A stretch of DNA of 64,000 nucleotides from Microvirga splendida (GTDB taxonomy: Bacteria; Pseudomonadota; Alphaproteobacteria; Rhizobiales; Beijerinckiaceae). The notes under the pieces are model-generated. The model ran no database searches. It was given only the letters and a program-made list of their open reading frames with translations, and was not told where the DNA came from. Below, one piece after another: positions 4,134 to 42,324 of the stretch. Numbering within the stretch: the first letter of the stretch is position 1; every line of letters begins with the position of its first letter. The position numbers and the translations under genes are program-made. The DNA lies in NCBI RefSeq assembly GCF_016427565.1, contig NZ_JAELXT010000001.1:124001-188000 (forward strand). Reading direction: 5' to 3'.

Positions 4134-4343
4134 GCACCTCTCCTCGAAACCGACGGCTCTGTCGTTCGGATGCATCATGCGCCGGGAGCCTTGTGCGAGC
4201 CTGACAGGAGCGGGTGAAGCGTGGTTCGCGACAAGACGTCGAACGGCTGGAGCGGTCTTTACCAAAGCACGCGAAGGCTCATGGCGATGGATCGGAGCGG
4301 CGGGAATTTCGTGATACGTTCAGCCCGTCACTGGGAGGCCTGC

Positions 4344-10209: not shown

Positions 10210-10244
10210 GAAAAAACTTCCTGCCCCTGAACCGTTCTTTTCGA

Positions 10245-11579: not shown

Positions 11580-11626
11580 CGCATCACTCTCGTTTCTTGC
11601 GTTCGGCTTTTTCTACATCGGCTAGC

Positions 11627-14859: not shown

Positions 14860-14910
14860 GTGCCTGTCAGCTCACCGAATGAACGTTGAGCCTGACAGAT
14901 GCACTATGAA

Positions 14911-20778: not shown

Positions 20779-20818
20779 GTATCGCTCCTAAGTTTCAGGT
20801 CGGACTAAACACCACGAC

Positions 20819-20830
20819 GCTTGTGCGAAG
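20819..20830. promoter_or_regulatory. Operator-like dyad before flgE
   Basis: GCTTGTGCGAAG, a variant of the element before fliF (CCTTGTGCGAGG) and flgB (CCTTGCACGAGG). It is centred about 46 bases upstream of the flgE ATG, at nearly the same distance as the other copies. Protein binding is inferred. Confidence 0.5.
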
Positions 20831-20871
20831 CTGTGCCGGGGATGCAGTCGATGGGATGGAAAGGGGGCATG

Positions 20872-22203
20872 CTATTGTCTCAGAATCTGGGCCAGATCCA
20901 TGAAGGCATCGCGGCTGGCCGGCATCGAGGGATCCTGCCGCAAGGCCTCGTAGATTTTCGGGACGAGCACCACGGCCTGGTCGAGCTCCTGATCGTTTCC
21001 GGCATGATATCCACCCATCAGCCTGAGATCGCGCGTATCCTCGAAACGGGCGATGAGGCTGCGCAGACGGCGGACAAGCTCCTTCTGGTCGGAGGACCAC
21101 ACGTGATCGGCCAGACGCGAGATGGAGCCGAGAACGTTGATGGCCGGATAGCGCCCCTGGTCGGCGATGGCACGGTCGAGAACGATATGCCCGTCGAGCG
21201 TTCCACGGATGTTGTCGGCCACCGGGTCGTTATGGTCGTCGCCGTCGATGAGCACCGAGAAGATGCCCGTGATCGCTCCCTTGCCTTCCTCTCCGGGGCC
21301 GGCCCGTTCGAGAAGGCGCGGCAGCTCGCTGAAGACGCTGGGCGTATAACCGCGCGCGACGGCGGGCTCGCCCGCGGCGAGCGCCACATCGCGGGCCGCA
21401 TGGGCATAACGGGTCACCGAGTCCACGATGAGGAGAACCGATTCGCCGCAATCGCGGAAATATTCCGCCAGGGCCACGGCCGTTCTCGGCGCCTGACGGC
21501 GCATCATCGGGCTCTCGTCGCCGGTGGAGACGACCATGATGGACTTGTGGAGGTTGGCCTGGATCGGCCCCTCCAGGAACTCGCGGACTTCGCGGCCGCG
21601 CTCTCCCACCAGGGCCACGACGATCGTGTCGAAGCCGTCGCACTTCGCCAGCATGGTCAGGAGGGTGGACTTGCCGACGCCGGAACCGGCGAAGATGCCG
21701 ATGCGCTGGCCCTTGCAGATGGGCGTGAACAGGTCGATGGCCTTGACGCCGGTCCTCAGCGGCTCCTTGACCCTGGAGCGCAGCATGGCCGAGGGCGGCT
21801 CGGCATCGTTCCGGACTGTCGTTGCACCCGGGATGAGAGGGCCCAATCCGTCCAGGGGCTCTCCAAGGGCGTTGATCACCCTGCCGCGCCAGCTTTGATC
21901 GGGGCTTAAGCCCACATCGCCCGCAAGAAAGGCCGGCATGCCGAGACCGGCCTCGATCCGTCCATTGAAGGGTTTGACCGTGACGCCGCCACTGTCGATG
22001 CGGACGACCTCGCCGGTTTCCGTCTTGCCGTGAGCCGAGAAACCGACCCGGTCTCCGAGCTTGACGAACTGGGACAGGCCCGCAACCCTGTAATAGCTCG
22101 GCGTGACCTCGTTGATGACGCCGCCGATCCTGACCTTCCGTCGCGCCCCACCTTCGGTGAGGACAAGCTCTTCGAGCGACTGCAGCGCATTCATGGCAGC
22201 CAT
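20872..22203 (-). CDS. fliI: Flagellum-specific ATPase FliI
   Basis: 443-residue export ATPase. Walker A is GSGVGKST (173-180), Walker B lies in ESVLLIVDSVTRYAHA, and the RGYTPSVFSELPRLLERAG stretch is typical. It forms the FliH/FliI/FliJ complex that feeds the export gate. Start ATG 22203 overlaps the flgF stop (TGATG); an internal ATG at 22194 is possible. Confidence 0.95.
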   Translation of the reverse strand: MAAMNALQSLEELVLTEGGARRKVRIGGVINEVTPSYYRVAGLSQFVKLGDRVGFSAHGKTETGEVVRIDSGGVTVKPFNGRIEAGLGMPAFLAGDVGLSPDQSWRGRVINALGEPLDGLGPLIPGATTVRNDAEPPSAMLRSRVKEPLRTGVKAIDLFTPICKGQRIGIFAGSGVGKSTLLTMLAKCDGFDTIVVALVGERGREVREFLEGPIQANLHKSIMVVSTGDESPMMRRQAPRTAVALAEYFRDCGESVLLIVDSVTRYAHAARDVALAAGEPAVARGYTPSVFSELPRLLERAGPGEEGKGAITGIFSVLIDGDDHNDPVADNIRGTLDGHIVLDRAIADQGRYPAINVLGSISRLADHVWSSDQKELVRRLRSLIARFEDTRDLRLMGGYHAGNDQELDQAVVLVPKIYEALRQDPSMPASRDAFMDLAQILRQ

Positions 22204-22928
22204 CAGGAGCTAGGGCCCAGGGTCTTGATCGCCTCCATGAGCGTCGATTCGCTCTCCTGGATGCTCGTCGCCGCGCTCTCGAAGTTTCTCTGAACGGCGA
22301 TCATCTTGGTCATTTCCAGGACAGGATTGACGTTCGAGCCCTCACTGTAGCCCTGCTGAATGCTGTTCGAGTTGAAGTCCTGGACGACATCGCCCGGGAT
22401 GTTCGAGATCACTCCCGAGTTTCCATAGCGGGTGAGCTTGGCGTCGGGGCTCAGGTTGAAGAGACCGATGGCCCCGACCTGGTTGCCGCCCTGGCTGATC
22501 GTGCCGTCCCGGCCGATCGTGGGAGTTCCTTCCATCGGGTCGAGGGCGATGGGAGCTCCGCCCGCATCGAGAACCTGGAAGCCCTCCACCGTCAGCAGAT
22601 CGCCGTTCTCGTTCATCTTGAAGCGGCCGTCACGGGTGTAGACAGGCCCGCTGGGTCCGCTGAAGGAGAACCAGGCTTCTCCCTGGATGGCGACGTCGAG
22701 AGGGTTGTCCGTCTTGATAACGGGCCCCGTGCGCCGGGACACGAAGTTCTGACCGGACGATGTAAAGGAGACGTTCTCCTTGGCCGCCAGGGACAGGATC
22801 TCCTCGAACTTCACCTCGTCTGCGCGAAAGCCGCCCGTGTTGATGTTGGCAACATTGTTCGCAATCGTGCTGAGGCGCTTTTCCATGGCCACTTGAGCGG
22901 ACAGCGCCACATAGAGCGAAGATTGCAT
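22203..22928 (-). CDS. flgF: Proximal rod protein FlgF
   Basis: 241-residue rod protein with the SLYVALSAQVAMEKRLSTIA opening, NNVANINTGGFR motif and NPVLEMTKMIAVQRNFESAA end shared by rod and hook proteins. ATG 22928 is preceded by GGAGGAG, so the longer frame to 23081 is rejected. It forms a two-gene unit with fliI and is divergent from motA. Confidence 0.92.
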   Translation of the reverse strand: MQSSLYVALSAQVAMEKRLSTIANNVANINTGGFRADEVKFEEILSLAAKENVSFTSSGQNFVSRRTGPVIKTDNPLDVAIQGEAWFSFSGPSGPVYTRDGRFKMNENGDLLTVEGFQVLDAGGAPIALDPMEGTPTIGRDGTISQGGNQVGAIGLFNLSPDAKLTRYGNSGVISNIPGDVVQDFNSNSIQQGYSEGSNVNPVLEMTKMIAVQRNFESAATSIQESESTLMEAIKTLGPSS

Positions 22929-23040
22929 CTGAACTCCTCCAGCCTGCGTCCCTGCGGGACACCGATACCACCGGGTGGCGCGCCAGCCTTCAGGATGCGG
23001 CAGCTCCAGGCCCGATGACCCATGCAGGATCGGTAGTCGA

Positions 23041-23062
23041 GCAGCCTTGCATGAGGCTTGCT
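23041..23062. promoter_or_regulatory. Operator-like dyad between flgF and motA
   Basis: AGCAGCCTTGCATGAGGCTTGCT: arms AGCA-GCCT and AGGCTTGCT pair with a one-base bulge. The core CCTTGCATGAGG (23046-23057) matches the elements before fliF and flgB. It lies in the 212-bp divergent gap, about 122 bases from flgF and 90 from motA, so it could serve either or both. Confidence 0.5.
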
Positions 23063-23140
23063 CCCGCGTTTCCAGCTTCACGCAAGCCTCCGCGGTTAGG
23101 ACATCGTCAACAGGTTGGATTTCGATAGGGGACTAAGGCA

Positions 23141-24022
23141 TTGGGCGTCTTGATCGGACTGGCAGTTGCCATCGGCTCGCTCGTCAGCGGCTATGTCGCC
23201 ATGGGCGGGCACTTGGCTGTTATCTGGCAGCCTTGGGAATACGTGATCATCTGCGGCATCGCGATCGGCACCTTCATCATCGCCAACCCCATGTCCCTGG
23301 TGAAGGACACCGGGCGCGCCGCCCGCGAGGCGATCTCCGGTGCCGTCCCGAAGCGGGAACACTACCTCTCGATCCTGGGTCTCCTCTACGCCCTGATGCG
23401 GGAACTGAAGAACAGGCCGCGCAACGAGGTCGAGGGCCACATCGACCAGCCCGAGGAATCGGAGATCTTCAAGTCCTTCCCGAGCGTCCTCAAGGACAAG
23501 GATCTGACGCTCTTCATCTGCGACTATGCCCGACTGATCATCATCGGCAATGCTCGGCCCCATGAGATCGAAGCGCTCATGGAAGAGGAGATCGCGACCC
23601 TCAAGCGCGACCGCGCCAAGCCGTACTACTCCCTCAACACCGTCTCGGAAGCCCTGCCGGCGCTGGGCATCGTGGCTGCCGTGCTCGGAATCGTGAAGGC
23701 GCTCGGCGCCATCGATCAGTCCCCGGCGATCCTGGGCGGCCTGATCGCCTCGGCCCTCGTCGGAACCTTCGTCGGCATCTTCATCTCCTATGCGTTCCTG
23801 TCGCCACTCGCCAACAAGGTCAAGTCGACCCGGGAGAAGCAGACCCGCGTCTACGTGATCGTGAAGCAGGCGCTCATCGCCTACATGAACGGCGCCCTGC
23901 CGCAGATCGCCGTCGAGCATGGCCGCAAGGGCATCTCGGTGGAATACCGCCCGACCATCGACGAGGTCGAAGCCGCCACCACGACGGGCGGCCGGTCCGA
24001 AGAGCTGAAAGAGGCGGCCTAA
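23141..24022 (+). CDS. motA: Flagellar stator protein MotA
   Basis: Proton-channel stator subunit, 293 residues with four membrane helices: about 2-20, about 30-50, about 170-192 and about 202-224. The conserved proline-containing segment EALPALGIVAAVLGIVKALG is present. It starts with TTG (GACTAAGGCA upstream); the protein then begins GVLIGLAVAIGSLVSGYVAM as rhizobial MotA proteins do. It opens the plus-strand operon motA-fliM-fliN-fliG-flhB and pairs with MotB encoded at 32 kb. Confidence 0.93.
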   Translation: MGVLIGLAVAIGSLVSGYVAMGGHLAVIWQPWEYVIICGIAIGTFIIANPMSLVKDTGRAAREAISGAVPKREHYLSILGLLYALMRELKNRPRNEVEGHIDQPEESEIFKSFPSVLKDKDLTLFICDYARLIIIGNARPHEIEALMEEEIATLKRDRAKPYYSLNTVSEALPALGIVAAVLGIVKALGAIDQSPAILGGLIASALVGTFVGIFISYAFLSPLANKVKSTREKQTRVYVIVKQALIAYMNGALPQIAVEHGRKGISVEYRPTIDEVEAATTTGGRSEELKEAA

Positions 24023-24025
24023 GCG

Positions 24026-24955
24026 ATGAGCGGAACACAAAGCGCCAACGATATCCGCGACATGCTGCTGGACTCGGCGGGCCTCTCGCTCGACCGCCTT
24101 CCGATGCTCCATGTCATCTTCGACCGCATGACCACGAGCTGCGCCGAGCACCTGCGCCACATGGCGGCCTCGCCCATGTACTACTCGCTCAGCGGCCTCG
24201 AGAGCGGGCGAGTCAGCGAAATCCTCGAGATGTACGAGGCCAATGCGGTCGCGGGCATCTTCCACGCTCCCGAGTGGGACAGCCACATCCTGATCGGCTT
24301 CGATCGCGACTTCATCTACACAATGGTCGAGGTGCTGTTCGGATCAGACGGATCGGAGGCGCCCGTCGAGGAGGCCCGCGGCTTCTCCACCATCGAGCTG
24401 CGGATGGCCCAGACCCTGTTCGAGCAGGTTGCCAAGGCCCTGCAGGCCTCCTTCGCGCTGGTGGCCGACACCAAGTTCAAGCTCGAGCGCATCGAAACCC
24501 GCATGGACTTCGCGGTCATCGGACGCCGGAACAATCAGGCGATCGCCGCGAAGTTCCTGCTCCAGGCCCTCAACCGCGGCGGCGAGATGTTCGTGGTCAT
24601 TCCGCAATCGGTTCTGAACCCGATGCGCAAGGTGCTCTCCCGCGTGGTCTCCAGCGAATCATCCGGCCGGGATCCTCGCTGGATGAAGCAGATCGCCACG
24701 GAAGTGAAGAAGACGGAAGTGACGCTCAAGGCGGTGCTCGAAGAGCGCTTCCTGTCGCTCGGCGAGATCGCCGACCTGAAGGTGGGCGATGTCATCGAGC
24801 TGCAGGCGACGCCGCGCAGCCGGGTCAAGCTCGAAGGCAATCAGCAAGGCCTGTTCTGGTGCAATATCGGCCAGTCCGACGGCACCTATGTCCTTAAGGT
24901 CGACGAACACATCGACCAAGAAAAGGAATTCCTCGACGATGTCCTCCCTCGCTAA
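24026..24955 (+). CDS. fliM: Flagellar switch protein FliM
   Basis: 309-residue C-ring protein. The N-terminal segment (NDIRDMLLDSAGLS) is where CheY-P would bind. The middle domain carries the FliM core (SILIGFDRDFIYTMVEVLFG-like strand-helix, from about 85) and the C-terminal SpoA domain (VTLKAVLEERFLSLGEIADL) binds FliN. Starts 3 bases after motA and overlaps the next small gene. Confidence 0.93.
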   Translation: MSGTQSANDIRDMLLDSAGLSLDRLPMLHVIFDRMTTSCAEHLRHMAASPMYYSLSGLESGRVSEILEMYEANAVAGIFHAPEWDSHILIGFDRDFIYTMVEVLFGSDGSEAPVEEARGFSTIELRMAQTLFEQVAKALQASFALVADTKFKLERIETRMDFAVIGRRNNQAIAAKFLLQALNRGGEMFVVIPQSVLNPMRKVLSRVVSSESSGRDPRWMKQIATEVKKTEVTLKAVLEERFLSLGEIADLKVGDVIELQATPRSRVKLEGNQQGLFWCNIGQSDGTYVLKVDEHIDQEKEFLDDVLPR

Positions 24956-25250
24956 CATCATCCTCTTCCTGGCTCTCGTGACGACCAGCATCATGGTTGC
25001 GGTCATGTACGTGAAGCTGAAGAAGCTCGACCGGTATCTCGCCGAGTACCAGCAGGTCTTCGACAGGACGGGAGAAGCCCTCAAAGGCGCTCAGACGGCC
25101 GTCATGAGCTTCGGAGCGGAAGGCAAGGAGACGCTCGCCATGCTCGGTGCGCGCATCGAGGAGGCCAAGGCGGTCGCGGCGCAGCTGGAGACCCTCACCC
25201 GGGAGGCCGGCCGGCAGACCCAGTCACGCTCCAATTCCCTTAATTCGTAA
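24939..25250 (+). CDS. Small membrane/coiled-coil protein between fliM and fliN
   Basis: 103 residues; ATG 24939 lies inside the fliM end (17-base overlap). A single N-terminal membrane helix (LANIILFLALVTTSIMVAVM) is followed by a coiled coil (YVKLKKLDRYLAEYQQVF) and a polar tail. I recall a conserved small rhizobial flagellar family here (DUF6468-like), but the name is uncertain. The position and coupling point to a motor or switch accessory; no mechanism is known to me. Confidence 0.75.
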   Translation: MSSLANIILFLALVTTSIMVAVMYVKLKKLDRYLAEYQQVFDRTGEALKGAQTAVMSFGAEGKETLAMLGARIEEAKAVAAQLETLTREAGRQTQSRSNSLNS

Positions 25251-25261
25251 GGTTCGTTCCC

Positions 25262-25618
25262 ATGACAAATCCCTTCGATCCCAAGTCTCACGACAAGGCC
25301 ATCTGGCAGCAGGAGAGTGCCATCTCCTCGCCGGACGACAAGCTCGGCGGCGGCAGGAACCTGGATTCCATCCTGCGCATCCCGGTCACCATCCAGGTGG
25401 TCCTCGGGTCCGCCACCATGCCCGTCGCCAACCTGATGAAGCTCGGCAGGGGCGCCATCGTTCCTCTCGATCACCGCGTGGGCGAGCCTGTCGACGTGGT
25501 CGTCAACGGAAGGATTATCGCTCGCGGCGAGGTCGTCGTGGTCGAAGACGACAACTCCCGTTTCGGGATCTCGCTCACCGAGATCGTCGGACCTCCGAGC
25601 AACGATCTTAACGGCTGA
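25262..25618 (+). CDS. fliN: Flagellar switch protein FliN
   Basis: 118-residue C-ring protein with one SpoA domain: IPVTIQVVLGSATMPVANLM, then VGEPVDVVVNGRIIARGEVV and the RFGISLTEIVG end. N-terminal 30 residues are polar and disordered. Located between the small membrane gene and fliG. Confidence 0.95.
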   Translation: MTNPFDPKSHDKAIWQQESAISSPDDKLGGGRNLDSILRIPVTIQVVLGSATMPVANLMKLGRGAIVPLDHRVGEPVDVVVNGRIIARGEVVVVEDDNSRFGISLTEIVGPPSNDLNG

Positions 25619-25632
25619 AGTGGCATTTCCGC

Positions 25633-26661
25633 ATGGTCGCACCAGTTCCCATGAAGGCGAATGGCTCCAAGGTCCTGAAGGGCCCCGAGCGTGTCGCAAC
25701 ACTGCTTTTTGCAATGGGGAAGCCTGCTGCCAGTAGGATCCTTAAGCATTTCAGCGAGGACGAAATCCGCCTCGTCACCAAGTCGGCTGCGCAACTCGGC
25801 CCCGTCTCGCCGACGCAGATCGACCAGTTGGTGGAGGAGTTCGCTTCCAACTTCACGGACGGGGCGGACCTCATCGGTGGCGCCGCTCACATCGAGAAGC
25901 TGCTGGCCGGCGTTTTGAGCCCCGAGCAGATCGCCAGCATCATGAGCGAGGTGGTCGGCAACGCCAACAGGAGCATCTGGGAGCGGATCTCGACGGTCTC
26001 GGAGAGCGCCATTGCGTCCTATCTGATGAAGGAGCACCCGCAGACGGCGGCGCTGATCCTCTCAAAGGTCAAGCCTTCCTGCGCCGCGAAGGTGATGGCT
26101 CAGCTTCCTCAGCCGCTTCGGAACAACCTCATGCGCCGCATGCTCAGCATGAAGCCGATCGTGGACGAGACCATGAAGAACATCGAGAAGACGCTCCATG
26201 AGGACTTCATGGCGAACTTCTCGAAGAACGCCGGTGCGGACACCCACGCCAAGATCGCCGACATCATCAACAAGATGGAGCGCGATCACATGGAAGATGT
26301 CCTGACCAACCTCTCGACTGTCCGCCCAAAGTCGGCCGAGATCCTCAGAGGCCTGCTCTTCACCTTCGACGATATCGTGAAACTTACGCCGAAGGATCGC
26401 ACGACCCTCTTCGATCAGGTTCCGCCGGATCGGGTCGTCCTCGCGCTCAAGGGCACGAACGAAGAATTCCGCAAGGTCGTGCTTTCGGCTCTCTCGTCGC
26501 GCGTGCGCCGCATGATCGAGCACGAGCTGAACAGCAAGGAGCCCTCGTCGCATCGCGATATCGCGGAGGCCCGCCGGACCATTACGGACCTTGCACTCGA
26601 AATGGCCGGTCGAGGAGAGATCGTCATCAATTCAGAGAACGAGGATGAAGCGTACTTCTAA
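25633..26661 (+). CDS. fliG: Flagellar motor switch protein FliG
   Basis: 342-residue torque-generating switch protein. The N-terminal domain binds FliF (KVLKGPERVATLLFAMGKPA), the middle holds the armadillo repeats with EHPQTAALILSKVKP, and the C-terminal domain has the charged torque helix region (ALSSRVRRMIEHELNSKEPS). ATG 25633 is used; ATG 25651 is possible. Confidence 0.95.
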   Translation: MVAPVPMKANGSKVLKGPERVATLLFAMGKPAASRILKHFSEDEIRLVTKSAAQLGPVSPTQIDQLVEEFASNFTDGADLIGGAAHIEKLLAGVLSPEQIASIMSEVVGNANRSIWERISTVSESAIASYLMKEHPQTAALILSKVKPSCAAKVMAQLPQPLRNNLMRRMLSMKPIVDETMKNIEKTLHEDFMANFSKNAGADTHAKIADIINKMERDHMEDVLTNLSTVRPKSAEILRGLLFTFDDIVKLTPKDRTTLFDQVPPDRVVLALKGTNEEFRKVVLSALSSRVRRMIEHELNSKEPSSHRDIAEARRTITDLALEMAGRGEIVINSENEDEAYF

Positions 26662-26678
26662 AGGCATAGCTTCAGCCC

Positions 26679-27743
26679 ATGTCTGATACGGATGACAAGG
26701 ACAGCAAGACAGAAGCGCCTTCCGAAAAGAAGGTTCGCGATGCCCTGGAGAAGGGAAACATCCCATTCTCCAGGGAAGCGCCTCTGTTCGCCTCTATTCT
26801 GGGCATCCTCATCGGTCTGGCCTTCGCAGTCCGGAGCAACACCAAGACGCTGACGGAGAAGCTGTCGCTTTTCATCAACAGGCCACAGGATTTCCGCCTG
26901 GAGACCGGCGCCGATGCGGCGAACCTGATCCAGGCCGTCGCCATCGAGGTGGGGCAGTGCCTCATCCCCGTCATCGTCATCCTGGCGGCCTGCAGCCTCT
27001 CCGCTTCGATCCTGCAGAACGTTCCATCCGTGGTGGCCGAAAGGATCAGGCCGCAATGGAACAGGGTCTCTCCTGTGGGCGGCTGGAAGCGCATCTTCGG
27101 CCGGCAGGGTCTCGTAGAATTCTTGAAGTCGTTGTTCAAGTTCGGAACGATGACACTGGTCAGCATCCTGCTCCTGAGATCGGAGCAATATAAGGTCTTG
27201 AATGCCATGTTCAGTGATCCGTCCCTTCTTCCGGAGCTGATGTTGACCATGGCGATGCGTCTCGTGTCCGCCATCGCGATCGCAACGATCGTCCTCGTCG
27301 CAGCCGACCTGCTCTGGGCCCGCTTCAAGTGGCACAGCGACCTGAAGATGACCAAGCAGGAGGTCAAGGAGGAGTACAAGCAGATGGAGGGCGATCCCAT
27401 GGTCAAGGCGCGCATGCGCTCCCTGGCCCAGGATCGAAGCCGCAAGCGGATGCTGGCCGCCGTGCCGAAGGCCACCTTCGTCATCGCGAACCCGACCCAC
27501 TACGCGATTGCCCTGCGCTACGAGCGCAGTGAGGCGAGCGCCCCCATCGTGGTTGCCAAGGGCCAGGACCTGATCGCCCTCAAGATCCGCGAAATTGCTG
27601 AGAAGAACGGCGTTCCCGTCATCGAAGACAAGCCTCTGGCAAGATCCATGTACAATCATGTTGAGGTGGATCGAATGATTCCCCCCGACTTCTACAAAGC
27701 TGTCGCGCAGATCCTGTTCTACATTCTCACGAGGTCGAAATGA
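26679..27743 (+). CDS. flhB: Flagellar export switch protein FlhB
   Basis: 354 residues: four membrane helices (about 36-52, 93-112, 150-166, 190-210), then the cytoplasmic domain. The autocleavage site NPTH is intact at 271-274, needed for the change from hook to filament export. N-terminal DKDSKTEAPSEKKVRDALEK is typical. The stop overlaps the next gene by 4 bases. Confidence 0.95.
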   Translation: MSDTDDKDSKTEAPSEKKVRDALEKGNIPFSREAPLFASILGILIGLAFAVRSNTKTLTEKLSLFINRPQDFRLETGADAANLIQAVAIEVGQCLIPVIVILAACSLSASILQNVPSVVAERIRPQWNRVSPVGGWKRIFGRQGLVEFLKSLFKFGTMTLVSILLLRSEQYKVLNAMFSDPSLLPELMLTMAMRLVSAIAIATIVLVAADLLWARFKWHSDLKMTKQEVKEEYKQMEGDPMVKARMRSLAQDRSRKRMLAAVPKATFVIANPTHYAIALRYERSEASAPIVVAKGQDLIALKIREIAEKNGVPVIEDKPLARSMYNHVEVDRMIPPDFYKAVAQILFYILTRSK

Positions 27744-28243
27744 GAAGCATTCGCACCGTGGACATGGTGGCTTCGTCAATCGAGCATCCGAATCTCCAGG
27801 CTTTCGAGGAGGTTCTGGCTTGCAACATCAAGGATGTCATTGCCGATTTCTGCCTCGCGGATGCGGACATCATCAGGTTCTATGCCGACAACCAGCTGCA
27901 TGGGAACATGGATGAGATGCTGACCTCTTCCGCCGAACTGTTCTTCAAGGGCGATACGCTGACATATGGGCATGTCGCGCATGTCAGCACGGGGCGTGAC
28001 GATCATTCCTGCGTCGTCCTCGACATGGAATTCGTGCATGACGCGATGACGGTCTTCTTCCAACTCATCTTCGGCGACTATTACATCGGGGTGAAGATCA
28101 GTAAGGTTCTGCTCGATCCGCCCTTCAGACGATCTGATTTCAACCTGTCCTCCTTCGCGCGCATCCTTTCCTCGGCGCGCCTGCAGCCCGTTCCTCGCCG
28201 CTTCCAGTCCCCCTACTGCCTCGCCGAATCTCCCCGGCATTGA
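27740..28243 (+). CDS. Hypothetical protein coupled to flhB
   Basis: 167 residues, not recognised. Its ATG overlaps the flhB stop (ATGA), so it is translationally coupled to the switch operon. Residues 1-125 look like a real folded domain: helical IEHPNLQAFEEVLACNIKDV, then beta strands in DRDDHSCVVLDMEF-like sequence and a hydrophobic end VFFQLIFGDYYIGVKISKVL. The last 40 residues (Ser/Arg/Pro-rich, ending LAESPRH) look less ordered, which could mean a late frameshift or simply a variable tail. No signal peptide. Could be a flagellar accessory. Confidence 0.6.
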   Translation: MRSIRTVDMVASSIEHPNLQAFEEVLACNIKDVIADFCLADADIIRFYADNQLHGNMDEMLTSSAELFFKGDTLTYGHVAHVSTGRDDHSCVVLDMEFVHDAMTVFFQLIFGDYYIGVKISKVLLDPPFRRSDFNLSSFARILSSARLQPVPRRFQSPYCLAESPRH

Positions 28244-28268
28244 TGGCTGAGCGCCGGCGGCTTTCCTC

Positions 28269-28952: not shown

Positions 28953-28995
28953 ACCGGCGCGGCTCATCGACCAAGCGCGGTCTTGCGCAGGCGGC

Positions 28996-34108: not shown

Positions 34109-35745
34109 CACGCAGCCTCCCGGCCGAGCCATTGCTTGAGCACGGCTGCGGCATGCTCTTCGCTGAGCTCAATGATCTGCTCGAGCTTGCGCTGCGGCGT
34201 ACGCGGCATCTCGATGAGGTTCTGCTCCTCCCTGTCGAGAGCGGCCTGCAGGGCCTGCCGTCCGTTCTCGTTCTCGGCCTCCTCGGCCTCGGCCGCAGCC
34301 AGAGCGGCTGCCTGCTCGCGCTGGAGCTCAAGCTCTGCCTGGTGGCGGGCCATCAGCATTCTCACGGCAGGGCGCAGGCCGAACCAGATCATCATTGCGC
34401 ACAGGGCCAGGATGGTGAGGGCATTCACGACCGTGCCGAATTGGCGCATGAGGATCTCGGTCAGCGACGGCCCCGGAACCGGCTGCAGCATGCCGCCATC
34501 GTCGACGAAGCTGACGGCCGCGACCTTGATCTGGTCACCCCGGGTCTTGCTGAAGCCGGTGGCGGACGAGACCAGCTGCTCGATCTCGGTGATCTTCGCG
34601 TCCATCTCTGCGGGAGTGGCATTCTCCCCCAGCAGGGAAGCGATCCGGGACCGGTTCACCAGCACGGCAACCGAGAGGTTCTTGATCTGGTAGCCGTCGC
34701 TGACGGTCTGGATGGTCTTCGACGAAATTTCGTAGTTGGTCAGCTCTTCGCGGCGCTGGTTGTCCTCGCTCGAGCTGTCACCCGATTCGGCGCGCACGCT
34801 CTCGTCAGGCAGGTTCTGCTGGACCGTGGTCGGCTTTTGCCCGCTCTTGTTCTGCGAGACTTCCGTTTCCTTGATCGTACGGACCGAGCGCTCCACCTTT
34901 GATTCGGGGTTGAAGATCGTCTCGTTGGTGCTGACCTTGTCCGTGCTCAGGCGGGCCGCCACGCTGATTTCGAAATTGCCGGTGCCGAGATAAGGCGTCA
35001 GGGTGCGGCGGACATTGTCCTGGATCTCCAGGCCCACGGTCTTCTCGAGACGGGCCATCTTGCCCGTGGTGGCATTGGCGGCATCATCTCCGGACATGAG
35101 AAGGGTACCGTCGGTATTCATCACGGTCACCTTGTCCACCGCCATGCCGGGGATAGCGGCGGCCACGAGGTGCCGGATCGCCTGCGCCGATGAAGCATCA
35201 TCAGCTGGCGAGGTGCGGATGACCACGGAAGCGGAGGGCGCCTGCTGCTCCCGGCGGAAGGAACCGCGATCGGGCAGGACGATGTGGACTCGGGCGGCCT
35301 TGATTCCCTTCATGCCCTGGATGGTGCGCGCCAGTTCGCCCTCGAGAGCACGAACCTTGGTGACCTCCTGCATGAAGGAGGTCAGGCCGAGCGAGCCGAG
35401 ATCGTTGAAGAGCTCGTAACCGGACTTCGTGCTGTGCGGGAGCCCCTTTTCGGCCAGAAGCATCCTGGCCGAGGCCGTGTTGCCGTAGCTGACCAGAAGG
35501 GCCGTTCCGTCGGCGCTCACATCGAAGGGAATGCCTGCGTCCTTGAGGACGGCGCCCATCCGTCCGACATCCTCGCGATCCAGCCCGGTGTACAGGGTCT
35601 CCTGAGCGGGGCGGCTGAGATAATAGGCTCCGACGCCGACGGACAGGAAGACGGCAAGGCCGATGACAGCCAGGGCAGCCAGGCGACGCGGGCCCAGCAG
35701 CAGCAAACTACTCCAGAGTCTTTCGGCTTGTTGACGACCAGGCAT
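34108..35745 (-). CDS. fliF: Flagellar MS-ring protein FliF
   Basis: 545 residues. First membrane helix about 18-40 (LAALAVIGLAVFLSVGVGAY), ring-building motifs (YTGLDREDVGRMGAVLKDAG, GFEL-like YELFNDLGSLGLTSFMQEV), second membrane helix about 445-465, and a cytoplasmic C-terminal tail (EQIIELSEEHAAAVLKQWLG) that binds FliG. Heads the operon fliF-fliH-motB-motC-fliK-transglycosylase. An operator-like dyad lies about 57 bases before its start. Confidence 0.95.
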   Translation of the reverse strand: MPGRQQAERLWSSLLLLGPRRLAALAVIGLAVFLSVGVGAYYLSRPAQETLYTGLDREDVGRMGAVLKDAGIPFDVSADGTALLVSYGNTASARMLLAEKGLPHSTKSGYELFNDLGSLGLTSFMQEVTKVRALEGELARTIQGMKGIKAARVHIVLPDRGSFRREQQAPSASVVIRTSPADDASSAQAIRHLVAAAIPGMAVDKVTVMNTDGTLLMSGDDAANATTGKMARLEKTVGLEIQDNVRRTLTPYLGTGNFEISVAARLSTDKVSTNETIFNPESKVERSVRTIKETEVSQNKSGQKPTTVQQNLPDESVRAESGDSSSEDNQRREELTNYEISSKTIQTVSDGYQIKNLSVAVLVNRSRIASLLGENATPAEMDAKITEIEQLVSSATGFSKTRGDQIKVAAVSFVDDGGMLQPVPGPSLTEILMRQFGTVVNALTILALCAMMIWFGLRPAVRMLMARHQAELELQREQAAALAAAEAEEAENENGRQALQAALDREEQNLIEMPRTPQRKLEQIIELSEEHAAAVLKQWLGREAA

Positions 35746-35795
35746 GGGAATCTCGGTACTGATAAATGTTCTCGAGATTACTTTTGCGTCGCCAA

Positions 35796-35807
35796 CCTTG
35801 TGCGAGG
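35796..35807. promoter_or_regulatory. Operator-like dyad before fliF
   Basis: CCTTGTGCGAGG inside the longer inverted repeat CAACC...GGTTG (35794-35811). It is centred about 56 bases upstream of the fliF ATG. The same element occurs before flgB and, in variant form, before flgE, flhA and between flgF and motA. Binding of FtcR is a hypothesis. Confidence 0.55.
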
Positions 35808-35866
35808 GTTGCCGCCTCTTCGTGATCGATCAAATCGTCGCTGAAAGGCTCGCGAAATCGGAAAAG

Positions 35867-36604
35867 TCAGAAGTAGGAGCGCACCAGGCCGCTCACGAGG
35901 ATGTTCCAGCCGTCGATGAGAACGAAGAAGAGGATCTTGAACGGCAGCGCCAGGACCGTCGGCGGCATCATCATCATGCCCATGGACATCACCAGGGTGG
36001 CGACGATCATGTCGATCACGAGGAACGGGAGGGCAATGAGGAAGCCGATCTCGAATCCGCGCCTCAGCTCGGAGATCATGAAGGCGGGGATCAGGATGCG
36101 CAGGTCGATCTTCTCGCCCTCTTCCGGCTTCGGGTAGTTGACGGCCGCCAGATCACTGAACATCTGGAGATCCTTCGGCCTCACATGGGTCAGCATGAAG
36201 TCGCGGAACGGCTCCGTCGTCCTGGTGAAGGCCTCCGTCTCGGTGATGCGATTCTCCGTCAGCGGCCGAACACCGTCGTTCCAGGCCTTGTCGAAGGTCG
36301 GTCCCATCACGAAGAAGGTCATGAAGAGGGACAGGCTGATCAGGAAGACGTTGGCCGGCGTGCTCTGAAGGCCAAGACCGGAGCGCAGGAAGGAGAAAGC
36401 CACCACGAAACGGGTGAAGCTCGTCACCATGATCAGAAGACCCGGCGCCAGGGACAGCACCGTCAGGAGCACGACGAGCTGGATGATGCGCCCGCTGACA
36501 GCTCCGTCTCCCGAGGGGATCAGCGCCTGAAGGTCCGCCAGCTGGGCATTCGCGCTGCCCGCCAAGAGGATGAATGCGCCGGTGAGGATCAGACGGAAAG
36601 GCAT
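35867..36604 (-). CDS. fliP: Flagellar export gate protein FliP
   Basis: 245 residues with a signal peptide (about 1-21) and four membrane helices; landmarks are RIIQLVVLLTVLSLAPGLLI, TSFTRFVVAFSFLR, and ITETEAFTRTTEPFRDFMLT near the middle. Last gene of the flgB operon. The 121-bp gap to fliF contains the dyad. Confidence 0.95.
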   Translation of the reverse strand: MPFRLILTGAFILLAGSANAQLADLQALIPSGDGAVSGRIIQLVVLLTVLSLAPGLLIMVTSFTRFVVAFSFLRSGLGLQSTPANVFLISLSLFMTFFVMGPTFDKAWNDGVRPLTENRITETEAFTRTTEPFRDFMLTHVRPKDLQMFSDLAAVNYPKPEEGEKIDLRILIPAFMISELRRGFEIGFLIALPFLVIDMIVATLVMSMGMMMMPPTVLALPFKILFFVLIDGWNILVSGLVRSYF

Positions 36605-36661
36605 GGCAACGGTCTCTCGGGAAAATGGACAGGTGGCTTGAAAACTCAGACTGCGCTCAGG

Positions 36662-37171
36662 CTACTGAACGATAAGGGTTTCGAGGACAAGCTCCTGGAC
36701 GACGCCCTTCGAGCGCAATTTGACGCGCTCGTTGAGGTCCTCCCTGAGATGAAGAAGGCCGCTCGGCCCCTGGATCTGCGCCAGCGACAGGGTGCGCAGA
36801 TAGGCCATAACATCCTGGCGGATCTCTCCGGCCATCACGTCCGGGCTCTGCTCTTCGTTCAGCTTATAGATGATGGAAGCCTCGACCCTCACCCAATCCT
36901 CGTTCGACGCGGCGAGATTCGTGACCACGGGAGCAAGCTTCTTGATTCCGATATTGCCCGCGTAAGGGCTCGCAACTTCGGTTTTCTCGGGCAGAGCCTT
37001 GTATTTCTCCTCCACCCGCTTCTCGATGCCTGAAACCATCACGAGCCCGAAGCCGCCTCCGATGGCCGCCGACAGCAGCGTCAGGAGGCCGAGCGTCAGG
37101 AGCACCCGCAGCGACCCTTCCCGGACGGGCGCGCTGCCGGCTGGAGCAGGAAGTTCCAGTGCCTTGGCCAT
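36662..37171 (-). CDS. fliL: Flagellar protein FliL
   Basis: 169 residues: one membrane helix (about 24-50) and a periplasmic domain ending KLRSKGVVQELVLETLIVQ, typical of FliL, which stabilises stators around the motor. Located between flgH and fliP as in other rhizobial clusters. A second FliL-like protein is encoded at 10245-10694. Confidence 0.87.
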   Translation of the reverse strand: MAKALELPAPAGSAPVREGSLRVLLTLGLLTLLSAAIGGGFGLVMVSGIEKRVEEKYKALPEKTEVASPYAGNIGIKKLAPVVTNLAASNEDWVRVEASIIYKLNEEQSPDVMAGEIRQDVMAYLRTLSLAQIQGPSGLLHLREDLNERVKLRSKGVVQELVLETLIVQ

Positions 37172-37189
37172 TTACCCGATCCTCGTCGT

Positions 37190-37888
37190 CTAGAAGGGAG
37201 TCAGAACGTCGTACAGCTGCTGCCCATAGGCAGGCTGCTGGACTTCCATGAGACGCCCGCGTCCGCCATAGGAGACCCTGGCTTCGGCGATCTTGTCATA
37301 GCTGATGGTGTTCCTCGGCGAGATGTCGCGAGGCCGCACGATGCCGGCGATATTGAGCACGCGAACCTCGAAGTTGACGCGCACTTCCTGCGATCCGCTG
37401 ATCACCACATTGCCGTTCGGAAGAACCTCGTTGACGACCGCAGCAACCGACAGGCGCAGCTTCTCGGAGCGGTCGATGGTCCCCTGCCCGTTTGAGTTTG
37501 ACGAGGAATTGATGCCGGCATCCGCCGTGCCGTCCGCGTTCCAACCCTTGAATGAGAAAGCATAGTCGAGGCCGGCGCTCACCGAGGATCGGCGCGACCT
37601 GTCGCTGGCGTTCTCGAACTCCGCCTTGTCGTCGATCTGGATGTTCACCGTCACGATGTCGCCCACCTGCCGGGCGCGCGGGCTGGTGAAGAGATCGGCG
37701 CTGGCATTGCTCCAGGTGGAGTTCGGCGCGGAGGGACCGGCGCCCTTGAACAAGTACGGCAGCGGTTCGCGCTCGACGGCGATCCCTGAGCCGACCGGCG
37801 TCATGCCCGGCTCGCGGCCGAGATCCTCCGGCCTCGTCGCGCAGGCCGCGAGGAAACACAGGCCGGCAATGGCAATAAGATGTTTCAA
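37190..37888 (-). CDS. flgH: Flagellar L-ring lipoprotein FlgH
   Basis: 232 residues. A TTG start at 37888 places a lipoprotein signal at the N-terminus (KHLIAIAGLCFLAAC, Cys16) with GAGG upstream, and overlaps the motE stop by 4 bases. L-ring landmarks: ADLFTSPRARQVGDIVTVNI, VNEVLPNGNVVISGSQEVRV, RPRDISPRNTISYDKIAEAR. The longer frame to 38380 is shadow of motE. Confidence 0.93.
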   Translation of the reverse strand: MKHLIAIAGLCFLAACATRPEDLGREPGMTPVGSGIAVEREPLPYLFKGAGPSAPNSTWSNASADLFTSPRARQVGDIVTVNIQIDDKAEFENASDRSRRSSVSAGLDYAFSFKGWNADGTADAGINSSSNSNGQGTIDRSEKLRLSVAAVVNEVLPNGNVVISGSQEVRVNFEVRVLNIAGIVRPRDISPRNTISYDKIAEARVSYGGRGRLMEVQQPAYGQQLYDVLTPF

Positions 37889-38397
37889 TTTTGCCTCACG
37901 GGATTCTTTTCGCGCTTGGGAGCGTCGGTGATGACATTGGCCAGCTGTGCGGCGCGGGCCGGCTCCATCTCGTTGAGAACCGCGCTGGCGGCTCGCGGAT
38001 TGAGCTTGGCGATAACGGCCGCCGCGATCTCCTCGTCCATGTTCATGAGCTGGAGAGCCGCCGCATCCGGCCGCATCCGCGCGTAGATCATGACGATCGT
38101 CTCGTCGGCCTTCTCCAGGACCTCGTTGCGGCGCTTGAGCCACTCCTCGTACTCGGCTCGCTTCGCCTCCAGAACCTTGATGCGACCCTCGATCTCCTTC
38201 TCCATATCGGCAAGCGCCTGCTTCTGAAGGGCGAAGCGTGCATCGGAGGCTGCATCGGCAATATTGGTGCAGTACTGGTTGTTCTTGGCGGGCGCATTCG
38301 CTTCCTGCGCCTGAGCACCGCCGAAAGACATGACTCCCAGGAGCAAGGCACCGGCTGCCACTCGCCGCAAATTCCGGCATGTCGTGCGAGACATCAT
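37885..38397 (-). CDS. motE: MotE-like chaperone
   Basis: 170 residues: signal peptide (about 10-31), then coiled coil (MEKEIEGRIKVLEAKRAEYE) and an MgtE-N-like helical end (MIYARMRPDAAALQLMNMDE). In Sinorhizobium MotE is a chaperone for MotC and lies between flgI and flgH as here. Start codon is the first of two ATGs; it overlaps flgI. Confidence 0.88.
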   Translation of the reverse strand: MMSRTTCRNLRRVAAGALLLGVMSFGGAQAQEANAPAKNNQYCTNIADAASDARFALQKQALADMEKEIEGRIKVLEAKRAEYEEWLKRRNEVLEKADETIVMIYARMRPDAAALQLMNMDEEIAAAVIAKLNPRAASAVLNEMEPARAAQLANVITDAPKREKNPVRQN

Positions 38398-39494
38398 TGG
38401 ATCACCAACTCCGCTTGAAGGGCGCCGGCCGTCTTGACCGCCTGGAGGATCGCGATGACATCGGACGGCTTGAGTCCCATCTGGTTCAACCCCTTGACGA
38501 GGGTCTGCAGATCCGAGCCCCGGACGATGGCCAGGGGCACTCGCTCCTCCGCCGCCGTGATCTGCGTGCGCGGCACCACCACGGTCTGACCCATCGAGAA
38601 CGGGTCAGGCTGAGAGACCTCGGGTGTTTCCGTCACGCGGATCGTAAGAGCCCCGTGCGTGATGGCCACGGTCGAGATCTGCACGTTCTTTCCGATCACG
38701 ACCGTCCCGGTCCGCTGGTCGACGACGATGCGTGCAGGCGTATCGGGCCTGATCTCGATATCGCCGAGTTCGGCAATGAACCGGGTCGCCGCAATATTCT
38801 TCGGCTTCTGCAGCACGACGGTCCGGAAGTCGCGGGGGGACGCGACGCGGATGCCGAAACGCTGCTGGGCATATTGATTGATCGCGTCGGTGATCAGCGT
38901 CGCGGTCTTGTAGTCAGGGTTCTTGAGCTCGAAAGCCAGCCCGCCCACCGCATCGAATCCGCCCTGAACCTCGCGCTCGATCAGTGCGCCGTTCGGAATG
39001 CGGCCCGCTGTCGCCACCCCAGAGGTCAGGGTCTCGGCCTGCCCCTGGGCGGAGAATCCCGACACCACGATCGCGCCTTGGGCAACGGCATAGACCTGCC
39101 CGTCGCCGCCCTGCAGGGCGGTCAGCATGAGGGTGCCGCCCTTCAGGGATGTCGCATCGCCCATGGAGGTGACGGTCACGTCGATGCGCGATCCGGTCCC
39201 GACGAAGGGCGGCAGGTCGGCCGTGACGATGACGGCCGCCACATTGCGGGTGCGCAGGTTGATGTCACGGACGTTCACGCCCATGCGGTCGAGCATGGAT
39301 TGCAGGGACTGCTCGGTGAACTGGGAGTTGCGCAGCGTATCGCCGGTGCCCTGAAGGCCCATGACGAGGCCGTAGCCGATCAGCTGGTTGTCGCGGACGC
39401 CCTGAACCGAGGCCACGTCCTTGATGCGGGTGGCAGCGTGCGCCTGTACTGCGAACAGGGCGGCGAAGAAAAAGAGGACAGCGCGGAGCATCAA
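38394..39494 (-). CDS. flgI: Flagellar P-ring protein FlgI
   Basis: 366 residues with signal peptide (RAVLFFFAALFAVQAHAA) and the P-ring body: RIKDVASVQGVRDNQLIGYG, LVMGLQGTGDTLRNSQFTEQ, LVKGLNQMGLKPSDVIAILQ. Overlaps flgA by 4 bases upstream and motE downstream. Confidence 0.95.
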   Translation of the reverse strand: MMLRAVLFFFAALFAVQAHAATRIKDVASVQGVRDNQLIGYGLVMGLQGTGDTLRNSQFTEQSLQSMLDRMGVNVRDINLRTRNVAAVIVTADLPPFVGTGSRIDVTVTSMGDATSLKGGTLMLTALQGGDGQVYAVAQGAIVVSGFSAQGQAETLTSGVATAGRIPNGALIEREVQGGFDAVGGLAFELKNPDYKTATLITDAINQYAQQRFGIRVASPRDFRTVVLQKPKNIAATRFIAELGDIEIRPDTPARIVVDQRTGTVVIGKNVQISTVAITHGALTIRVTETPEVSQPDPFSMGQTVVVPRTQITAAEERVPLAIVRGSDLQTLVKGLNQMGLKPSDVIAILQAVKTAGALQAELVIQ

Positions 39495-39955
39495 TAGACT
39501 CCAATCCGGATCCGGCCATCGGCCTGAACGCGCCCGGTGATGATTCGGCCGCTATCGACGTTCTTTACCTGGATCGTCTCACCCATGGTGCCGGACTGCA
39601 GGGGAATGCCGACGCCCATGATCGAGAGCCCGCCTTCCTCGAAAACGATCTGAGCCTGAACGCCCCGCGTGACGAGCTTGGGATCGTCGACCGCGTTCAT
39701 CGGGATCGGCTCGCCCGGCCGAAGAGTGCGACGTGCCATTTTCCCGGTCAGAACGCGGGGGGATTCGACGACGGCTGTGCGGTAACGGTAGTTCTCGGGA
39801 AAGGCCCTGTCCTTCAGCATCGACTCCTGGATCGTATCGCCTGGATAGATTGTGACGGCAGGAACCGGGAGGATACGCTCCTCGGCAACCGCACCTTGCA
39901 GCGTTCCGACGCTGAGGATGGTTGCCATGAGAGCGAGCTGGACGAAGTTCTTCAT
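39491..39955 (-). CDS. flgA: P-ring assembly chaperone FlgA
   Basis: 154 residues with a signal peptide (FVQLALMATILSVGTLQGA) and a SAF-type domain: VTIYPGDTIQESMLKDRAFP, ARRTLRPGEPIPMNAVDDPK, IQVKNVDSGRIITGRVQADG. Short form without a large N-terminal domain. Coupled to flgI by ATGA. Confidence 0.93.
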   Translation of the reverse strand: MKNFVQLALMATILSVGTLQGAVAEERILPVPAVTIYPGDTIQESMLKDRAFPENYRYRTAVVESPRVLTGKMARRTLRPGEPIPMNAVDDPKLVTRGVQAQIVFEEGGLSIMGVGIPLQSGTMGETIQVKNVDSGRIITGRVQADGRIRIGVY

Positions 39956-39979
39956 GATGAGATCACCCGCATGCCGCCT

Positions 39980-40768
39980 TTAGCGGATGCCCTTTGACAC
40001 GGTTCCGGCCATGTCGTCCGCAGCCTGGATGACCTTGGAATTCATCTCGAAAGCGCGCTGAGCCGAGATCAGGTTCGTGATTTCCTTGATCGGGTCCACG
40101 TTCGAGGCTTCGAGATAGCCCTGGTGGATCTTTCCGTAGCCGGGATCGGACGGGATACCCACGGCCGGCGCGCCCGACGCCAGCGTCTCGCGATAATAGT
40201 TGCCGCCGATGGGCTCCAGGCCGGCATCGTTGGCGAAATTCGCGAGCGTCAGCTGACCCAGGTTCTGAGGCTGAGCCTCTCCGGCGATCTTGGCGAAGAT
40301 CTCGCCCGACTCGTTGATCGTCACGTCGAGCGTGTTGGGCGGAACGATGATGGGCGGGTTGAGGGTGTAGCCGTCGAGGGTGACGAGCTGTCCGTCGCCG
40401 TTCTTGTTGAACGACCCCGCACGGGTATAGACGATCTCGCCGCTCGGCGCATTCACCTGGAACCAGCCGCGCCCGTTGAGAGCGAGGTCGAACTGGTTCG
40501 CGGTGTTCGTCAGGGAGCCCTGTCGGTGGAGGTTGCGGATGGCCGCCGTCTTCACGCCCAGACCCAGCATGGCTCCTTCCGGCACAGGGCTGGAGCCTGC
40601 CTGGTTGGGAATGGCCTGCGAGCGCTCGGTCTGATAGAGGAGATCCGTGAACTCCGCCCGTGCCGCCTTGAAGGCGGTGGTGTTGACGTTCGAGATGTTG
40701 TTGGCAATCACCTCGACATTCAGCTGCTGCGCATTCATTCCGGTTGCGGCAATCGCTAGCGCTCTCAT
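39980..40768 (-). CDS. flgG: Distal rod protein FlgG
   Basis: 262 residues, the usual FlgG length. [20 protein letters not shown] at the N-terminus, [20 protein letters not shown], and C-terminal [20 protein letters not shown]. Fourth gene of the flgB operon. Confidence 0.96.
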
Positions 40769-40780
40769 GGTCTTATCCTC

Positions 40781-41113
40781 TTAGATCGCCATCCGGGCGA
40801 TTTCCTGATAGGCCGCAACCACCTTGTCGCGGATGGCAATCGCGGTCTGAAGCGTCTGTTCGGCGGACATCACGGCCTCGACCACCTGCTGCACCGAGGC
40901 TTTGCCCTGGATGCCGGCAATCGATGCGGCTTCACCCGCCTTCATGGTGTCGACAGCCGACGTGGCCACCTGGGCCATCATGTCGCTGAAGCTCACCGGC
41001 GCAGCGCCGGCGACGGCTCCCGCTGCCGGAGACGTCGTGCCGAAAGCCGGAACGGCCGTGACCGCCGCCGGGCTGTCGATCATTGAGGAGATGGAGGATA
41101 CGGCACTGATCAT
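40781..41113 (-). CDS. fliE: MS-ring/rod adaptor FliE
   Basis: 110 residues. Ala/Ser/Pro-rich start, then helices FSDMMAQVATSAVDTMKAGE and VEAVMSAEQTLQTAIAIRDK ending VVAAYQEIARMAI, the FliE signature. First substrate of the export apparatus, joining FliF to FlgB. Confidence 0.93.
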   Translation of the reverse strand: MISAVSSISSMIDSPAAVTAVPAFGTTSPAAGAVAGAAPVSFSDMMAQVATSAVDTMKAGEAASIAGIQGKASVQQVVEAVMSAEQTLQTAIAIRDKVVAAYQEIARMAI

Positions 41114-41114
41114 A

Positions 41115-41531
41115 TCAGCCTCTCATGAGATCAATGGTTGCGGAGATCATGGCTCTCGCCTGCTTCATCATCTGCAGATTGGCCTGATAGGATCGATTGG
41201 CCTCCCGCATGTCGGCCATTTCGATCAGCATGTTCACGTTCGGCTTCTTGACCATTCCGTTCTCGTCGGCCGCCGGATTGCCGGGATCGTATTCGACCGG
41301 GAAAGGCGCTTCGTCCTGGCCGACGTCCTTCACCGATACCGAGGCTGCGCCGAGCGTCCGTTCAAGCTCGGAGCGAAAGGTGATCGTCTTGCGCGTATAG
41401 GGATCGGACCCGGGAGTCCGCCCGGTCGAATTCGCATTCGCGATGTTCTCGGACACGACGCGCAGGCGCGCCGACTGCGCCTCAAGACCGGCGCTGGACA
41501 GTTTTCCGGAGGCAATCAAAGGATCGATCAT
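41115..41531 (-). CDS. flgC: Proximal rod protein FlgC
   Basis: 138 residues. [20 protein letters not shown] near the N-terminus and [20 protein letters not shown] near the C-terminus are the FlgC landmarks. Overlaps flgB by 4 bases; 1 base separates it from fliE. Confidence 0.95.
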
Positions 41532-41917
41532 GACGGAGTCCTCACGCTGGTCAGCAGCATTCGATGGAATGACTTCACGATGGTCGTGTTCAGGGTATGC
41601 TGGCGGTTGACCTCACCAGCCTTGATGAGCTCCTGCTCAAGGCTCACGGAGTTCTTCGAGTAGACTGTGTCCCAGCTCTCGGACTTCTTCACCTTCGTCG
41701 CCTCGGCGCGCGATGGGGAGATGCCGATGTGGCCGTTGCTGGTCGCCGCCATGACCAACTTGGTCTTGTCCAGCACGTCGGCGAACGGCTCGACATCCCG
41801 GGCGCGGTAGCCGGGAGTGTTGGCATTGGCGACATTGCCGGAAATGGTCGTCTGGCGGGCAGCAAGCCACTGAGCCTGTCGCGATGCCAAATCGAACAAG
41901 TAGACAGGTGCCGTCAC
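41528..41917 (-). CDS. flgB: Proximal rod protein FlgB
   Basis: 129 residues; GTG start at 41917 (CGGAGATTCCT upstream). [20 protein letters not shown] is the conserved rod motif. First gene of the longest flagellar operon in the window (flgB to fliP). An operator-like dyad lies about 51 bases before the start; the divergent neighbour is the FixL-like kinase. Confidence 0.95.
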
Positions 41918-41962
41918 AGGAATCTCCGAGCAAATATGGTAAAGGAGCGTTTAAGCTCCCAA

Positions 41963-41974
41963 CCTTGCACGAGG
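41963..41974. promoter_or_regulatory. Operator-like dyad before flgB
   Basis: CCTTGCACGAGG, differing from the fliF copy at only the two central bases, with AA on the left in both. Centred about 51 bases upstream of the flgB GTG. Function inferred from recurrence. Confidence 0.55.
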
Positions 41975-42132: not shown

Positions 42133-42324
42133 AGTTGCACTTCACGCCCGGGCGTTACCATGTCGCAACCGAATCAGTTGCTTTTCAGCCAGCTATCCTC
42201 ATGAAGGGCGCGGTCGCCGGAACATTGGCCGATGCGGCATGAGCCCAGTCGGGCTGCTGTTTGCGCGATCATTTGCCAATACGTTAAAAAACTGCAAGCA
42301 ACGCAGCTCTTGGGTTGGGGGGTT

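Follow-up and report, generated by a model that had tools for sequence, protein, structure and literature searches.

We analysed a 64,000-nucleotide (nt) stretch of the Microvirga splendida genome (contig NZ_JAELXT010000001.1, positions 124,001 to 188,000; the window), which contains a flagellar gene cluster and ftcR, the gene for an OmpR/PhoB-type regulator of the FtcR/Rem/LafR family. Eight sites in the window, those of flgB, fliF, flgE, flhA, flgJ, flgF, motA, and an unannotated gene of 45 amino acids (aa), share one element (Table 1). It consists of two half-sites close to CAAGCTT, repeated in one orientation with a period of 11 bp (CAAGCTT-N4-CAAGCTT), and of a -10-like TAnnnT hexamer 7 bases downstream. 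A comparison with relatives had been proposed as a check, and the full element is kept far beyond the genus Microvirga. Its co-occurrence with FtcR and its placement upstream of flagellar genes give circumstantial support to the original prediction that FtcR is the regulator, and we consider FtcR very likely to be the binder of these boxes.

Architecture of the element

The original prediction was a 12-bp palindromic dyad upstream of fliF, flgB, and flgE. The three 12-mers are present exactly as described (35796-35807, 41963-41974, and 20819-20830), with their centres 56.5, 51.5, and 46.5 bases 5' of the first base of fliF (35745), flgB (41917), and flgE (20778), respectively. The first of them lies within or across the fliF box, whose T at 35805 is 60 nt from the start codon. 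As a unit, the dyad was the poorer description, since the 12-mers are a slice of the longer 11-bp direct repeat with its -10-like hexamer. The list of operons was also incomplete, and the sites of flhA, flgJ, flgF, and motA and a fourth match to the 12-mer had been missed. The window holds four copies of the 12-mer in degenerate form, where 0.45 would be expected, and none of 100 shuffles reached four. The fourth match (4189-4200) is part of a genuine site too, the box of the 45-aa gene.

FliF of the window shares 98% identity with FliF from named Microvirga. On the gene strand, the consensus across an alignment of 28 and 34 Microvirga loci (two sets overlapping in species) is about GC(C/A)AGC(C/T)TCGCRCAAGSYT. 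CAAG was at the fixed place in 166 of the 171 regions upstream of fliF, flgB, flgE, flhA, and the 45-aa gene in all loci including other families, an upper figure for which the best place within 130 nt was taken with CAAG preferred; the five regions without CAAG were dropped before the matrix was made. The half-site CAAGCTT is clearest in flgF and flgJ.

The 11-bp direct repeat is the usual register of OmpR/PhoB-type sites, and a tandem direct repeat of 10-11 bp is expected of such an operator. In the Microvirga set, column similarity was 8.7 bits for the 11-bp direct register, 2.6 bits for the next direct one (offsets 4-18), and 4.3 bits for the best inverted one. The corresponding values in 94 sites from other genera, whose core columns are biased because the sites were picked by score, were 9.0, -3.6 (offsets 7-12 only), and 6.7 bits. 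The 11-bp direct register was thus the best in both sets. Because AAGCTT is its own reverse complement, the element can also be read as a dyad, but the direct register beats the inverted one and all eight window sites are on the strand of their own gene.

The box keeps a fixed place and orientation beside the -10-like TAnnnT, as expected of an OmpR/PhoB-type operator. This -10 is predicted from sequence. The last T of the hexamer, a column that was not used in picking the sites, is present in 76% of the 94 non-Microvirga sites; the first three positions of the hexamer were counted in the score. With the hexamer taken as -12 to -7, the half-sites are at about -37 to -20, which is the -35 region, and the predicted leader lengths are ~20-35 nt at most of the window sites and ~95 nt at flgF.

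Two other candidates were rejected. A 19-bp palindrome (CAACCTT-N5-AAGGTTG) is found in Microvirga fliF upstream regions, but its outer arms are missing from the other promoters. Sigma-54 promoters have the form TGGCAC-N5-TTGC, and the spacing of the element, judged by eye, does not fit.

Specificity in the M. splendida genome

A genome scan for enrichment had been suggested for the short motif, and it did not bear the short motif out. The 11-base form was found at 62 places in the whole genome and at 97 in a backwards control, and a 13-mer with one mismatch allowed was found at 187 and 237 places, respectively. Three of the ten exact 13-mer matches are flagellar sites; the other seven were read only as ~75 nt of sequence each. 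These counts argue against the 12-mer form of the motif and indicate that the 12-mer alone holds too little information. The longer element performs better and is concentrated at flagellar promoters.

A profile was trained on sequence only, with 56 rows from Microvirga sites (the motA and flgF labels of two rows were swapped, which is harmless because the rows were pooled), and it scored the best 150 of 1960 first-look candidates in the own genome. Nine places in 5.2 Mb had an expectation value (E) below 0.05, and eight of them are the window sites, although this result is partly circular because the window sites were in the training. With a matrix made from non-Microvirga sites only, the eight window sites ranked 1st to 8th (16.3-24.7), with flhA and flgE near noise because the reversed maximum was 16.1. 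A weak candidate upstream of a DUF1217 gene scored 15.0, under that maximum. The matrix from the fliF, flgB, flgE, flhA, and 45-aa gene regions, untrained on flgF, motA, and flgJ, ranked these three next with 19.3, 15.9, and 13.8, respectively (reversed maximum 12.6). All 20 further Microvirga regions have the divergent flgF/motA pair of sites, and in 18 of these the two sites are separated by 24 bp.

Distribution of the element and FtcR across the order

The order-wide search, free of the circularity noted for the own genome, covered 119 genomes of the order (own excluded), with 59 first-look candidates scored per genome under stricter filters than in the own-genome scan. Genomes with an FtcR match above 140 bits were counted as FtcR-positive (25 genomes and the own one, out of 34 matched). 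A match to the element at E<=0.02 was found in 18 of 25 FtcR-positive genomes versus 6 of 94 FtcR-negative ones (Fisher 5e-11). At cut-offs of 0.005, 0.01, and 0.05 the numbers were 14, 15, and 19 of 25 versus 3, 4, and 13 of 94. Twenty of the 44 matches were within 70 kb of ftcR. Strong matches in four FtcR-negative genomes (G085, G088, G091, and G146) were taken as chance; the frames downstream of them looked ordinary and non-flagellar by eye.

Forty stretches from 21 FtcR-positive genomes outside Microvirga (760 kb) had 124 matches versus 12 in reversed sequence, and 66 versus none at scores above 20. These stretches were centred on ftcR, flhA, and partly on known matches, which favours matches and is not offset by the reversed control. 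Of the 124 matches, 94 precede a flagellar gene by 15-330 nt, and for 59 of these the distance is 44-70 nt. The genes are flgE (16), flgJ (13), flgB (12), motA (10), DUF1217 (9), fliF (9), flhA (8), flagellin (7), and others (10, two of which are upstream of ftcR). Six of the 94 fall inside the preceding matched gene, and 23 of the 124 have no matched gene. The window and many relatives have the box at fliF, whose promoter FtcR reportedly binds in Brucella, and within Azorhizobium a box stands before flgB in A. doebereinerae (L066).

As a control, 20 stretches from type III loci or flagellar loci of the other type (398 kb) gave 10 matches. In two genomes with a second, other-type flhA (G155 and G079), six stretches around that second gene had one match (14.0), in a stretch without a matched flagellar gene. 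FlhA matches form two groups, and all 21 other genomes with FlhA at least 58% identical to that of the window carry FtcR. In other families, a match of at least 12 was found upstream of 8 of 21 non-own same-type flhA versus 0 of 8 other-type flhA, a comparison that is weak by itself because many flhA genes appear internal to operons. Four FtcR-positive genomes without this FlhA type (G062, G110, G115, and G152) were examined to part FtcR from flagella. In G152 and G110, parts of this same type of flagellum are encoded, and flgB and flgJ have boxes there. G062 and G115 also have boxes, and the stretches taken from them include few flagellar genes or none. The element is thus found upstream of flagellar operons in FtcR genomes and is rare elsewhere, but this pattern is confounded with flagellar type.

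Which regulator binds the element

Rem is described as a presumed direct activator of flagellar genes (PMC4018554). In B. melitensis, FtcR is reported to bind the region upstream of fliF (PMC9456535), and PMC8781033 names flgE and fliF as genes on which FtcR acts. The rem homologue LafR is described as controlling lateral, not polar, flagella in B. diazoefficiens and as acting without phosphorylation (PMC8429497). An FtcR, Rem, or LafR operator of this form was not found in the open literature, a search that did not include the primary Rem and FtcR papers.

We propose that FtcR, as an OmpR/PhoB-type activator, would bind as a tandem dimer to the two 7-bp half-sites, which are one helical turn apart. 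Bound to this pair, it would stand in for the -35 contact and bring RNA polymerase to the promoter. The eight promoters might then be turned on together, for the basal body, rod, hook, export, motor, and 45-aa protein.

Several observations weigh against FtcR as the binder. FtcR and the flagellar type travel together, and co-occurrence therefore cannot split an FtcR site from a site of any other regulator. At E<=0.02, 7 of the 25 FtcR-positive genomes had no match, and in G048, G062, and G106 no match was found upstream of a flagellar gene in their stretches. Good matches in the FtcR-negative genomes G150 (at a frame of unknown kind) and G114 are unexplained, and seven matches in the 40 stretches are inside flagellar genes only. 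Within the window, no box was found upstream of ftcR or of a flagellin gene. According to PMC9456535, the Brucella melitensis FtcR motif from chromatin immunoprecipitation (ChIP) and electrophoretic mobility shift assay is TGTGGGCA, which came from biofilm ChIP and 118 of 363 peaks. It has 0 copies in the window, and the box does not fit it. Finally, the own genome has one strong match outside the cluster (E 0.007), a box-like promoter at C41:22295-22581 (L230 1500-1790) before a 71-aa gene. This promoter scored at least 14 in 12 of 30 loci, own included. The leader of the 71-aa gene continues into TTAACC, and a paralogue in the window (60231-60395, minus strand) has TTAACC...TTAAC instead. 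Thus, two OmpR-type regulators, FtcR and perhaps CtrA, may share or divide this promoter family.

That promoter family, which mixes the box with TTAACC, also speaks for a different reading, in which the element is bound by some other OmpR-type regulator (CtrA-like or not) within this flagellar lineage and FtcR acts upstream of that regulator. Genomes encode several OmpR-type proteins, and these would use the same site geometry. Nevertheless, we consider this unlikely. An FlhA-family match was found in 70 of the 94 FtcR-negative genomes (a few may be type III secretion), yet these genomes have few box matches, and many box matches are located around ftcR. The CtrA site, TTAA-N7-TTAA, differs from the box. 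A plain sigma-factor promoter element without a regulator site would explain the constant distance to the -10-like hexamer and the single orientation, but it is very improbable, as the 18-bp repeat ends 7 bp before the hexamer, a gap too short for a -35/-10 pair, and has the 11-bp register. Binding of the LuxR-type VisN/VisR to the element as a dyad is hardly credible despite the partial inverted symmetry, since the direct register outscores the inverted one and visNR is given as absent from B. diazoefficiens and A. caulinodans in PMC8429497, yet the genus Azorhizobium has the box before flgB.

FtcR remains the probable binder. In Hyphomicrobiales, FtcR/Rem/LafR is a master regulator for one type of flagellum, and a matrix with fixed -10 spacing would allow its candidate direct targets to be identified in the sequences of relatives. 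The conserved 45-aa gene is a first such addition.

Other features of the window and its relatives

Table 1. Boxes, proposed regulator, and genes in the window (coordinates are positions in the window)
Feature	Start	End	Strand	Remarks
fliF box	35794	35811	-	CAACCCT-CGCA-CAAGGTT; -10-like 35781-35786; profile E 0.004
flgB box	41961	41978	-	TCAGCCT-CGTG-CAAGGTT; -10-like 41948-41953; profile E 0.002
flgE box	20817	20834	-	ACAGCTT-CGCA-CAAGCGT; -10-like TTTAGT 20804-20809; profile E 0.026
flhA box	14909	14926	-	CGACCTC-CGCG-CAAGCTT; -10-like 14896-14901; profile E 0.044
flgJ box	11623	11640	-	CAAGCTT-CCCG-TAAGCTA; -10-like 11610-11615; profile E 0.013 (in training by then)
flgF box	23043	23060	-	CAAGCCT-CATG-CAAGGCT; 126 nt to start; divergent from motA box; profile E 0.026
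motA box	23072	23089	+	CCAGCTT-CACG-CAAGCCT; -10-like 23097-23102; profile E 0.002, best match of the genome
45-aa gene box	4187	4204	-	TCAGGCT-CGCA-CAAGGCT; -10-like CATGAT 4174-4179; profile E 0.006
DUF1217 gene, weak candidate box	5641	5658	-	CAGG replaces CAAG; 99 nt from start
ftcR	53854	54540	-	OmpR/PhoB-type regulator, proposed binder; Pfam Trans_reg_C
fliF	34108	35745	-	First gene behind its box; Pfam
flgB	41528	41917	-	Pfam Flg_bb_rod; name from position and resemblance
flgE	19288	20778	-	Pfam
flhA	12784	14859	-	Pfam FHIPEP
45-aa frame, unannotated	3996	4133	-	MSVILLPVIVASLIGLVGTPAVRLMASSKRARSWAKSQSGVLRRY; behind the 4187-4204 box; membrane-like by eye

The gene behind the flgJ box was identified by the Pfam family Rod-binding. 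The 45-aa frame had no Pfam match. It has a match at E<=0.001 in 22 of 48 Microvirga genomes, and its pooled ratio of nonsynonymous to synonymous polymorphism (pN/pS) was 0.28 over seven of these, a sign of purifying selection. Its box scored at least 15.8 in 20 of the 21 loci examined (of 22), eight of which had contributed sites to the training. We predict that the 45-aa gene is a member of the regulon and is expressed with the flagellum.

Two kinds of hairpin were seen. In the fliF leader (35749-35779, minus strand), an inverted repeat AATCTCG...CGAGATT is just 5' of the start codon and folds at -7.8 kcal/mol (z -3.2); of 28 fliF leaders from Microvirga, 20 contain ATCTC...GAGAT. Control of translation by this hairpin is possible. 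In three other Microvirga loci, a hairpin was found by eye ~64 nt after a box (L160 ~780-890, minus strand; L161 17329-17430, plus strand; L163 ~1365-1475, minus strand). The stem varies and the loop is near-constant, CTGCGGATG(T/G)ACCAG; in these three Microvirga, it may be a small RNA belonging to the flagellar regulon.

Divergent from flgB, the window encodes a multi-PAS histidine kinase and a LuxR-type, FixJ-like response regulator (42232-45649, plus strand). Through this pair, the cluster may be connected to a further signal. Second FtcR-like genes are present at G126:C1:2871716 (49%; box match 12 kb off) and G089:C1:968632 (43%).

Comparison with known operators

The Brucella FtcR site is like the flagellar box in its regulator family and in fliF as a target. 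If FtcR binds the box described here, the Brucella ChIP motif deserves a second look.

The pho box of PhoB has a 7+4+7 bp layout; its direct repeats have a period of 11 bp, lie upstream of the -10, and replace the -35. The flagellar box has the same layout and period, and it is also over the -35 region in one orientation. In contrast, its half-site is CAAGCTT and not CTGTCAT, and its distance to the -10 is 7 bp and not about 10 bp, a value that depends on the chosen half-site frame.

The relation to the tts box is made testable by the matrix. The rhizobial tts box is bound by TtsI, and its NGR234 consensus is quoted as tcGTCAGcttntcGaaAGctnngccncnta in PMC3009519. It has CAG(C)TT, a second AAGCT, and the final TA at spacings identical to those of the flagellar box, in a gapless alignment in register. 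On the flagellar matrix, the NGR234 consensus scored 20.6 bits, which none of 20,000 letter shuffles reached (maximum 20.0), and the B. japonicum tts consensus scored 13.9. Two of the ten matches in the control stretches resemble tts boxes and are located in a type III locus (L342 4698 and 10230, both plus strand), and the one at 10230 fits, by eye, the pattern in PMC5748692. The two boxes also differ, as the tts box has NTCGAAAG where flagellar sites have CGCRCAAG. By eye, the window sites have the register and the half-sites in common with the tts pattern and nothing more, and three tts-like boxes in pNGR234a stretches score only 10-15, among other places of similar score. As TtsI of NGR234 we took the product of a gene recorded as 'response regulator' that sits where TtsI is known to be encoded. 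It is 31% identical to FtcR over 151 residues (69 bits). This is about the level of the weakest matches in the FtcR search (60-69 bits, with another program), and thus a special kinship of the two proteins is not shown. Tentatively, the FtcR box and the tts box might be one operator type, in which OmpR-type activators use an AG-N9-AG-N10-TA layout at two evolutionarily related export machines within one bacterial order, although we hold this to be rather doubtful. If it were true, the type III secretion regulon would have kept or borrowed a flagellar operator, and cross-binding would be possible.

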